This document shows, one piece after another, positions 7,642 through 31,517 of a DNA stretch of 64,000 nt. Under the pieces are notes generated by a model. It made no database searches. It was not told the origin of the DNA and was given only the letters and a program-made list of their open reading frames with translations. The translations under genes and the position numbers were made by a program. Numbering within the stretch: position 1 is the first letter of the stretch; the number at the start of each line of letters is the position of its first letter. The stretch lies in assembly GCF_026913205.2 (NCBI RefSeq), contig NZ_CP168151.1, positions 372,001 to 436,000 on the forward strand, given 5' to 3'. Origin of the DNA: Lentilactobacillus sp. SPB1-3 (GTDB lineage Bacteria; Bacillota; Bacilli; Lactobacillales; Lactobacillaceae).

Positions 7642-8766
7642 ATGACGAATCATTCATGGTTATTGTCCCCACTGATGACAAGCGTGTTTTTTGTATTAGG
7701 AGTAGCACTTTTTTTTCAAGTAATCATGCAAATGCTGGCCTTGAATTATGCAAAAACTGAGTGGTCCGTTACCACTTTTGAGCGAATTCAAAGAATAATT
7801 AGTATTTTGTATTTTGGCATTATTGCCGTAATCTTAGAGGTGAACAGCTTTCACAATGTAGGCAGTGGAGGATTTGTTAATTTTCGTATTCTGTTAGTTA
7901 TTTATATCATGGCGTATTTAGGACAGGTTGAAGGATTGTCGGTACTGATGATTAGTTTGATTTCCTATATTACCCTTAGGGGAATTAGTGCTAATACACC
8001 AGTATTTATTGCAATTTTTCTTGGAGGATACGTAATTTTTGCATATTTTGTTAAGTTATTACAATTGAAAAAAATTAAGATGTTAACTTGGTTGATAAGC
8101 GTTAACGTTGTGGTAATTGCATATTGGTTTTGGCTCAGTGGTGGTACGTTTACAAATACGAATATGTGGTATCAAATTTTTGCTTTTATGATAACGAGTG
8201 GTTGCCTTAGCTTTGAACTGACTCAAATTATGACAGACAATAATGAAATTATTATGATTTCTCGACAGGCAAGGACGGACTATTTAACAGGGTTAAAGAA
8301 TGATGGGGCATTCACTAAGGATCTTTCCTATGCTATAGAAAATGCCGGTAATGATGGTAATTCTTTGCATTTGATGGCTTTAGATATTGACCATTTTAAA
8401 ATGATTAATGATCAGCATGGTCACTTGGCAGGTAACAAAATTTTGTCTTTTGTTGGGTGGTCATTCAAACAAATCACCAATGGTATTCCTGGGGTGGAAT
8501 GCTATAGAGTTGGTGGTGAAGAATTTGACATTATTTTTAGGAATGTCCATATTCATGATGTTGAAGAGATAGCCCGTGAAATTAATCAGCAAATACAAAT
8601 TGCAGAAATTGAATATAAAGGGGTATCTATTCCAATTACAGTTTCAATTGGGATCGCGAAAAAGCATGCGAATGATAATAGCGATGACCTGTATGAGCGT
8701 GCGGATAAGATGTTGTATGAGTCTAAACGCAATGGTCGTAACCGAATTACTTCTGATAACGATTAG
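7642..8766 (+). CDS. Membrane diguanylate cyclase (GGEEF)
   Basis: The N-terminal half (about 10-200) contains six or so membrane helices resembling a small-ligand sensor. The C-terminal half is a GGDEF domain opening with TDYLTGLKN. It has ALDIDHFKMIND (metal-binding Asp) and an intact catalytic loop GGEEF (291-295). No RxxD I-site occurs five residues upstream (the preceding residues are GVECYRV), so feedback inhibition by c-di-GMP should be absent. It should make c-di-GMP from two GTP and supply the receptor at 3.4 kb. Start ATG 7642 has GAGG. It closes the operon that begins with the phosphodiesterase. Confidence 0.9.
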   Translation: MTNHSWLLSPLMTSVFFVLGVALFFQVIMQMLALNYAKTEWSVTTFERIQRIISILYFGIIAVILEVNSFHNVGSGGFVNFRILLVIYIMAYLGQVEGLSVLMISLISYITLRGISANTPVFIAIFLGGYVIFAYFVKLLQLKKIKMLTWLISVNVVVIAYWFWLSGGTFTNTNMWYQIFAFMITSGCLSFELTQIMTDNNEIIMISRQARTDYLTGLKNDGAFTKDLSYAIENAGNDGNSLHLMALDIDHFKMINDQHGHLAGNKILSFVGWSFKQITNGIPGVECYRVGGEEFDIIFRNVHIHDVEEIAREINQQIQIAEIEYKGVSIPITVSIGIAKKHANDNSDDLYERADKMLYESKRNGRNRITSDND

Positions 8767-8889
8767 AGAGATACAAGAAAGCTGTTAAATAACAAAGTTT
8801 GCGAGTAAAAAAATAAATTTCAAAATTTGTTTGTAATTATTAGAATTTAATGATAAACTTACTAACTAAGAAATAAGGAGGTCATAATT

Positions 8890-8967
8890 ATGAAAATTAA
8901 GATTAATGACGTACATAAATTTAATGGAACAGTGACCTCCACCTCAACCACCATTATGCCTGGTTGA
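8890..8967 (+). CDS. 25-residue Thr/Ser-rich leader peptide
   Basis: A perfect AAGGAGGT ribosome site (8875-8882) precedes ATG 8890. The frame encodes 25 residues and stops at TGA 8965-8967. Residues 14-21 are T-V-T-S-T-S-T-T: five Thr and two Ser among eight, encoded by ACA, ACC and TCN codons. Such a run just upstream of alternative hairpins is the signature of a ribosome-sensed attenuator. No independent function of the peptide is expected. The regulated gene is the permease at 9089, a family that includes serine and threonine transporters. Confidence 0.78.
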   Translation: MKIKINDVHKFNGTVTSTSTTIMPG

Positions 8968-9066
8968 GTATTTTAAAGTGCCTGTAAATTATCATTAAAA
9001 ACACAAGCCACTCAATCAGATTGCATTACGATTTCCGTAGTACTAAATCTGGTTGGGTGGTTTTTA
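8943..9066 (+). promoter_or_regulatory. Leader-peptide transcription attenuator of the amino-acid permease
   Basis: Four segments can pair in two exclusive ways. Segment 1 CTCAACCA (8943-8950) pairs with segment 2 TGGTTGAG (8961-8968), which spans the leader stop codon. Segment 3 (9008-9022) pairs with segment 4 (9046-9060) over 15 positions with G-U pairs, followed by TTTTT (9061-9065), a terminator. Alternatively, segment 2 (8960-8969) pairs with segment 3 (9010-9019) over 10 positions and breaks the terminator. Ribosomes stalled on Thr codons would cover segment 1 and favour 2:3, giving read-through. The pairings are visible; the Thr signal is inferred. Confidence 0.78.
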
Positions 9067-9088
9067 TTATGCGAGGAGAGATTGACAT

Positions 9089-10498
9089 ATGGATAAGAAG
9101 GAATCAGAACCACAGTTAAAAAGATCGTTGTCGTCAAATCAAATGCAAATGATTGCTCTTGGAGGAACCATTGGAGTTGGATTATTCATGGGTTCGACTG
9201 CAACGATTAAGTGGACTGGCCCATCAGTCCTGTTGGCGTACGGCTTTGCAGGATTTATTTTATACTTAGTAATGCGTGCCCTGGGGGAAATGATTTACAT
9301 TAATCCTGGCACTGGTTCATTTGCTGATTACGCTACAAATTATATTCATCCGTTAGCAGGGTACTTAACTATGTGGAGTAATATTTTCCAATTCATAGTT
9401 GTTGGAATTAGTGAAGTTATCGCAGTTAGTCAGTATTTGAATTATTGGTGGCCTAATTTGCCTGGGTGGATATCCGGGTTAGTGGTAATCATCACTTTGA
9501 CGTTGGCTAACCTAGTGTCAGCTAAGGCTTACGGAACTATCGAATTCTATTTTGCTTTAATCAAGGTAGTCACGATTATCTTGATGATTGTTGTCGGAAT
9601 GATGGTAATCTTCTTGGGCTTTGGTAACAACTGGCATCCAATGGGATTAGCTAACTTGTGGCAAAATGGCGGTTTTTTCACTGGTGGCTTTAAAGGATTC
9701 TTCTTTGCACTTTCAATTGTTGTTGGTTCATATCAAGGAATAGAATTACTTGGAATCACTGCTGGAGAGGCTTCTAACCCACGTGAGGCTATCGTTACTT
9801 CAGTTAAGTCAATTGTTTGGCGGATATTGATTTTCTATATTGGAGCAATTTTTGTAATTGTAACTATTTATCCTTGGAACCAATTAGCCACTGTCGGTTC
9901 ACCATTCGTTGAGACTTTCTCTAAGGTCGGAATTGCTGGAGCAGCTGGAATTATCAACTTTGTTGTTTTAACTGCTGCAATGTCAGGTACTAATTCAGGA
10001 ATTTACAGTGCTAGTCGGATGTTGTACAAATTGTCTAAAGAAGGCCGAGTAGCTAAAATTTATAGCAAGCTCTCTCCACATAAGGTGCCATCCGTTGCGA
10101 TTTTAGCAATTTCAGGAGGAATCTTAATCGGGATCATCTTAAACATCGTATTATCAGCATTTGGTGCCGCTCAAAACATCTTCGTGTTGGTTTACAGTTC
10201 AAGTGTGTTACCAGGAATGGTGCCATGGTTCGTAATCTTGATTTCCGAGTTAAGATTTAGACGTTCTAATCCCGAAGTCATCAAGATGCATCCATTTACG
10301 ATGCCATTTTATCCAATTAGTAACTATATCGGTATCGCTTCGTTACTGATTATCGTTCTCTTCATGTTCATTAATCCCGATACTCGGGCATCAGTTAGTG
10401 TGGGTGCATTATTCTTAATTATTTTATCGATTCACTTCTGGTGGAAACACAGTAGAAGTAAACAAGCCCAACCAAAAGCACAACCAGATAATGATTAA
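9089..10498 (+). CDS. AAT-family amino-acid permease (probable Ser/Thr type)
   Basis: This 469-residue APC-superfamily permease has twelve membrane helices. The first has the family glycine motif ALGGTIGVGLFMGS, and the AGEASNPREAI motif lies mid-protein. The fold matches the AAT group, which holds LysP, CycA, SerP and the B. subtilis threonine permease YbxG. The substrate cannot be read from the protein alone, but the upstream attenuator has a Thr/Ser-rich leader, so threonine and/or serine uptake is the best guess. Start ATG 9089 has GAGGAGAG. The gene is monocistronic, ending in a strong terminator. Confidence 0.87.
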   Translation: MDKKESEPQLKRSLSSNQMQMIALGGTIGVGLFMGSTATIKWTGPSVLLAYGFAGFILYLVMRALGEMIYINPGTGSFADYATNYIHPLAGYLTMWSNIFQFIVVGISEVIAVSQYLNYWWPNLPGWISGLVVIITLTLANLVSAKAYGTIEFYFALIKVVTIILMIVVGMMVIFLGFGNNWHPMGLANLWQNGGFFTGGFKGFFFALSIVVGSYQGIELLGITAGEASNPREAIVTSVKSIVWRILIFYIGAIFVIVTIYPWNQLATVGSPFVETFSKVGIAGAAGIINFVVLTAAMSGTNSGIYSASRMLYKLSKEGRVAKIYSKLSPHKVPSVAILAISGGILIGIILNIVLSAFGAAQNIFVLVYSSSVLPGMVPWFVILISELRFRRSNPEVIKMHPFTMPFYPISNYIGIASLLIIVLFMFINPDTRASVSVGALFLIILSIHFWWKHSRSKQAQPKAQPDND

Positions 10499-31382: not shown

Positions 31383-31410
31383 CGAAAATTAAAGAAATGA
31401 ATCTTTAACT

Positions 31411-31517
31411 CTAGTCCAGAGAGACTAGCAAGACAGCGAATATAAACGGGTGGAGTGGACCTTGGTTCACACTGTCTAAAAACGCTCACTGCTTGCTAGC
31501 AGTGGGCGTTTTGTTTT
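31411..31517 (+). promoter_or_regulatory. PyrR-dependent attenuator
   Basis: The hairpin CTAGTC-CAGAGA-GACTAG (31411-31428) carries the PyrR-binding sequence AGTCCAGAGAGACT. CTAGCAAG (31425-31432) can instead pair with CTTGCTAG (31492-31499) as antiterminator, opening the terminator AAAACGCTCACTGC/GCAGTGGGCGTTTT (31479-31512). UMP-bound PyrR should stabilise the first hairpin and cause termination. Confidence 0.88.

Follow-up and report, generated by a model that had tools for sequence, protein, structure and literature searches.

Results

A leader ORF and alternatively pairing RNA segments precede an amino-acid permease gene

The window, meaning the whole 64,000-nucleotide stretch of the Lentilactobacillus sp. 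SPB1-3 genome that was analysed, carries a Thr-rich leader ORF, RNA segments with alternative pairings and a terminator ahead of an amino-acid permease gene. This regulatory unit spans from the Shine-Dalgarno (SD) pairing at 8877 through to the permease, and the upstream gene (7642-8766) lies on the same strand as the leader. The features are:

8877..8885, + strand: leader SD, GGAGG from 8877; segment 0 = GGAGGTCAT (sequence; MFE and centroid folds)
8890..8967, + strand: leader peptide ORF of 25 codons, MKIKINDVHKFNGTVTSTSTTIMPG (predicted ORF; relatives have Thr-rich ORFs in the corresponding position)
8929..8952, + strand: regulatory codons Thr-Val-Thr-Ser-Thr-Ser-Thr-Thr (ACA GTG ACC TCC ACC TCA ACC ACC)
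8932..8940, + strand: segment 0' = GTGACCTCC, partner of the leader SD (fold; group swap test)
8943..8950, + strand: segment 1 = CTCAACCA, partner of segment 2 (fold; CTCAACC in 42/45 leaders)
8960..8969, + strand: segment 2 = CTGGTTGAGT, containing the leader stop codon at 8965-8967 (sequence)
9007..9022, + strand: segment 3, terminator 5' arm (fold; swap tests)
9046..9065, + strand: segment 4, terminator 3' arm (9046-9062) with TTTTT at 9061-9065 (fold)
9089..10498, + strand: amino-acid permease of 469 aa, ThrP/YifK-like (best NCBIfam match NF047867)

The sequence-only reading of this DNA had described a 25-residue ORF with a ribosome site and a T-V-T-S-T-S-T-T run, followed by segments forming either 1:2 plus a 3:4 terminator or a 10-bp 2:3 antiterminator, with the leader stop codon inside segment 2. 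Each of these elements is in place: the ORF runs from an ATG at 8890 to a TGA at 8965-8967, within 8960-8969, and segment 2 pairs with part of segment 3 (9010-9019, ACTCAATCAG) over 10 bp including one G-U. The RNA from 8877 to 9075 folds with an MFE of -55.5 kcal/mol compared to -36.8 (sd 4.1) for shuffled sequences (z -4.6), a value reached by 0/200 shuffles. In the window fold the terminator hairpin contributes -29.4 kcal/mol and the 1:2 hairpin -9.8 kcal/mol. A simple promoter scan of 8600-9200 gave 2 sites where 2.5 were expected by chance. A terminator scan of the same region found none, because its loop limit of 8 is too short for the attenuator hairpin. Elsewhere in the window, Rfam placed a PyrR binding site (RF00515) at 31398-31516 on the + strand with 54.9 bits (gathering 54).

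The permease is ThrP-like and the genome has no threonine synthase match

The permease was matched best by the profile of the bifunctional threonine/serine transporter ThrP (NF047867) at 564 bits, narrowly ahead of PRK10746 at 559 bits and far ahead of other permease models. Since this score is under the cut-off of 850, the protein is ThrP-like rather than a proven ThrP, and it is probably a threonine/serine importer. E. coli YifK, on which the ThrP name was founded, is described in PMC10070963 as an H+-dependent carrier of threonine and serine with a Km for threonine 7.6-fold lower than for serine. We found no match to thrC (threonine synthase) in the own genome, while one was present in 14/14 control genomes, suggesting that the organism probably depends on imported threonine. 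The same genome holds a permease paralog (C1:362785-364140) that is 66% identical, lies behind a tRNA gene and clusters with Secundilactobacillus kimchicus in the permease tree; no leader was found for it.

The leader is found before related permeases across several genera

Relatives of the permease were collected by a single scan of genome contigs, and the best 80 of 512 loci were kept. Of these 80 named relatives, 26 have a clear Thr/Ser-run leader (from Pediococcus, Weissella, Ligilactobacillus, Furfurilactobacillus, Limosilactobacillus and one MAG) and 2 more a degenerate one (L037, L052); both these and the three candidates not accepted as leaders (L028, L065, L081) were judged by eye. 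No clear leader was found in 54/80, of which 46 fall in leader-free branches of the tree and 8 among leader-bearing rows. The tree, from which L003 was dropped, carries a long-branch warning, L066 and L028 included.

A motif scan extended this survey. The pattern ACCTCAACCAC-gap-GGTTG, which is blind to Furfurilactobacillus with its different segment 2, occurred at 49 places in 48 of 397 Lactobacillaceae genomes, covering 9 genus codes. At 38 of the 49 places it lay 60-300 nt ahead of the permease (genus codes g1, g5, g6, g9, g18 and g22), and every one of these 38 has its Thr-rich leader ORF. Among the remaining 11 places, a single one (L101) shows an ORF that the leader filter accepts. A stricter pattern was found in 3/395 genomes, all within the 73 Lactobacillaceae, and in 0/322 genomes of other families, which, as this pattern misses the window itself, speaks only to that exact form being unseen outside Lactobacillaceae. 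The pattern GGAGGTCATAATTATGAAA with 2 mismatches was dropped as unspecific (88/301 genomes).

We parsed 45 leaders (39 plus 6 additional) and left near-identical ones unparsed (L010, L011, L106, L108-L110, L112, L113, L116, L123, L125, L154, L155, L158, L160, L161, L163, L164 and L167-L169). At least 6 consecutive Thr/Ser residues were present in 43/45, the remaining residues being variable, and each leader had 4-9 Thr codons. ACC accounts for 57% of the Thr codons in 39 leaders (148/261), whereas its share in 41 long window ORFs is 18% (170/949); for ACT the shares are 11% and 45%, respectively. A script detected the terminator in 44/45 leaders (38/39 and 6/6); in L120, which it overlooked, the fold shows a hairpin before TTTATTTTT.

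Within the genus, a search with the leader DNA matched 3/24 genomes (own, G010 and G015, the last as a 31-base match only), and the permease was detected at E 1e-150 in 2/24, the own genome and G010. The nearest named permeases, in the best 80 of 512 loci, are those of Pediococcus, at up to 86%. A transfer across genera, in either direction, is likely. The closest relative of the leader (88%) is in G010 (C3:202516-204125; L089, L129), an assembly that is 83% complete with 7% contamination. A stop inside its permease frame and weak SD:codon pairing suggest that this copy may be decaying.

Antiterminator and terminator segments fit their own partners

Duplex energies of segments with their own and with swapped partners were compared as genus-group means, with the groups permuted. 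The main grouping (B) comprised 44 leaders in 7 groups with L099 (genus code g9) separate; A had 8 groups, and C left L099 out (6 groups), Weissella being split or joined. L120 is absent from all tests owing to its missed terminator. The numbers of permutations matching the own partners, in the order B (of 5040), A (of 40320), C (of 720) and L099 counted with Weissella (of 5040), were:

2:3: 3; 4; 3; 3
3:4: 1; 1; 1; 1
SD:Thr codons: 1; 1; 1; 1
bases between SD and ATG alone: 73; 154; 1; 1
1:2: 477; 2320; 43; 157
segment 2:arm3 (control): 396; 3442; 2; 18

The other unpredicted pairings gave 627 (SD:segment 2), 3524 (SD:arm5), 2989 (SD:arm3), 1675 (run:arm5) and 1904 (run:arm3) of 5040 in grouping B. 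The control segment 2:arm3 was low in two groupings and not in the other two, so that the test is not perfectly clean, and this result is an unexplained blemish. The comparison nonetheless indicates that the predicted antiterminator 2:3 and terminator 3:4 are conserved by covariation between genera. The check for covarying stems in relatives that the sequence-only reading had proposed thus supports 2:3 and 3:4. For 1:2, predicted in the window fold, the swap test gives no support, its segments being nearly invariant, with CTCAACC of segment 1 kept in 42/45 leaders. In Ligilactobacillus equi (L019) the Thr run is kept and 2:3 is weak (-4.8 kcal/mol). In three Furfurilactobacillus leaders (L018, L020, L022) the 1:2 hairpin recruits a longer part of the Thr run and is very strong, at about -33 kcal/mol.

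A ribosome stalled at Thr codons is predicted to favour the antiterminator

The Thr/Ser codons and the pairings 2:3 and 3:4 are thus conserved in relatives, which supports the attenuator interpretation first offered from the sequence. We infer, with high confidence, that the leader works by ribosome-mediated transcription attenuation, with charged tRNA-Thr as the signal and the putative threonine/serine importer gene as the target. With ample Thr-tRNA the ribosome would reach the stop codon in segment 2 and block 2:3, and the 3:4 terminator would then halt transcription ahead of the permease. With scarce Thr-tRNA the ribosome would stall at the Thr codons and mask segment 1, leaving segment 2 to join segment 3, so that no terminator would form and the permease would be made.

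A thermodynamic model of 38 leaders, in which the ribosome masks 12 nt from the A site, is consistent with this scheme. The expected number of upstream pairs of segment 3 averaged 17.1 for a ribosome stalled at the best Thr codon, 5.5 for one that has reached the stop codon and 12.5 for ribosome-free RNA (17.9, 6.3 and 10.8, respectively, for the window). Segment 3 was predicted to gain more than 3 upstream pairs under a stalled compared to a stop-codon ribosome in 37/38 leaders. Against the ribosome-free state, which itself is predicted to give segment 3 much upstream pairing, the stalled state had an advantage above 3 pairs in just 19/38.

Homologous permeases behind T-boxes point to threonine as the signal

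Rfam gave no family match up to E 1 over 8770-9090, on which we reject a T-box leader (RF00230) or another Rfam family for this leader. The contrast with T-box usage that the sequence-only reading had drawn is borne out by the same genome, with 29 T-box matches, 11 of them above the Rfam cut-off, and a weaker one before thrS (57.4 bits, under the cut-off of 93; specifier read as ACC). Among 12 permease loci searched with Rfam, picked in part after scanning 87 loci for T-box motifs, T-boxes above cut-off precede three permease homologs (L043 1704-1931, L054 1680-1918 and L087 1680-1900) of Leuconostoc fallax, Periweissella beninensis and Liquorilactobacillus uvarum. Their specifiers, read by eye with the rule codon-A-CC (given in PMC5794164 as 'GAA...XXXA'), are ACU (Thr). 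These three are homologs rather than close orthologs, because they lie outside the 61-row tree branch (support 99/87) that contains all 27 leader-bearing rows.

These T-boxes and the missing threonine synthase match lead us to favour threonine over serine as the signal. An attenuator of the same build tuned to serine, or equally to threonine and serine, is the strongest competing explanation, though an unlikely one. Each of the 45 parsed leaders has at least one Ser codon, E. coli ThrP carries serine too (PMC10070963), and the sequence-only reading had left serine open. However, Thr codons outnumber Ser codons in 45/45 leaders. TCA, the common Ser codon, falls within the conserved CTCAACC of segment 1, and the TCC of the window is among the bases paired with the SD. 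Even less probable is stalling through a drug or a general slowdown of translation in the manner of resistance-gene leaders, a type reported from Gram-positive bacteria (PMC8632094, PMC2965389), given that the Thr/Ser run is constant while the other leader residues differ widely between genera, and that the regulated gene encodes a ThrP-like permease. A last reading, to which the lack of an above-chance promoter would be congenial, takes the hairpin as merely the terminator of the same-strand upstream gene and the small ORF as a product of chance. It has next to no credibility, since the Thr run is conserved and is preceded by an SD of its own, and we reject it on the swap-test result that segments 2, 3 and 4 vary between genera yet match their own partners.

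The leader SD can pair with the Thr codons

The MFE and centroid folds of the window both contain a 9-bp helix, absent from the sequence-only reading, between the SD region (8877-8885) and 8932-8940. It extends to 11 bp in Pediococcus stilesii, and in Limosilactobacillus (L035, L038) the pairing is made by other bases. In the group swap test the SD:Thr codon pairing covaries between genera. We then shuffled, leader by leader, the bases that separate the SD core from the ATG, and 15/44 leaders paired better than at least 95% of their shuffles; in many of the remaining leaders the SD core alone pairs with the codons. On these comparisons the pairing is real in part of the leader set and may be trivial in the rest. 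Four leaders (L159, L162 and L165 of g18, and L066) have GGTGG instead of GGAGG as SD, which fits CCACC of their Thr codons.

A tentative extension of the attenuator model, which we regard as possible but doubtful, is that the Thr codons do double duty in ribosome stalling and in pairing with the leader SD, so that each nascent transcript would admit one pioneer ribosome and the choice of ACC and TCC would be partly set by pairing. The helix could then shut the leader to further ribosomes after the first passage. The SD of the trp leader is likewise sequestered.

Discussion

The working principle of this device is long known from other bacteria. E. coli thrL resembles the leader in being short, in its Thr-rich run and in the strong terminator before the first gene. 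It differs in controlling a biosynthetic operon through Thr and Ile codons, where here a permease would be controlled, and the pairing between its SD region and its codons is poor (-6.4 kcal/mol compared to -17.1 here). We claim no sequence kinship. In the T-box-rich Firmicutes, leader-peptide attenuation has been proposed for ilv-leu of Staphylococcus aureus and for hisS/hisZ and his operons of bacilli and others (PMC5794164, PMC2965389, PMC9413887). As described there, those attenuators are of the same leader-peptide type and sense Leu/Ile or His, whereas the present one would respond to Thr and precedes a transporter in Lactobacillaceae. In the Bacillus cereus group, a Thr T-box has been reported ahead of an APC transporter (PMC2494555). 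Threonine T-boxes, used by three homologous permeases, share the signal tRNA-Thr with this leader; a T-box, however, binds uncharged tRNA directly and has no leader peptide, while this locus has a leader peptide ORF. No report of a threonine leader peptide in Lactobacillaceae was among the matches listed from the open-licence full-text literature, mostly titles and abstract starts.

As a highly probable reading, our analysis brings the uptake of threonine in Lactobacillaceae under classical leader-peptide attenuation, in a family whose amino-acid genes have mostly been assigned to T-boxes. Depending on the genus, homologous permeases are preceded by either a leader peptide or a Thr T-box, for what seems to be one signal, and the exchange of RNA sensors is therefore directly testable on them. 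The leader also offers an independent hint at what an APC permease of lactic acid bacteria from food and gut transports.
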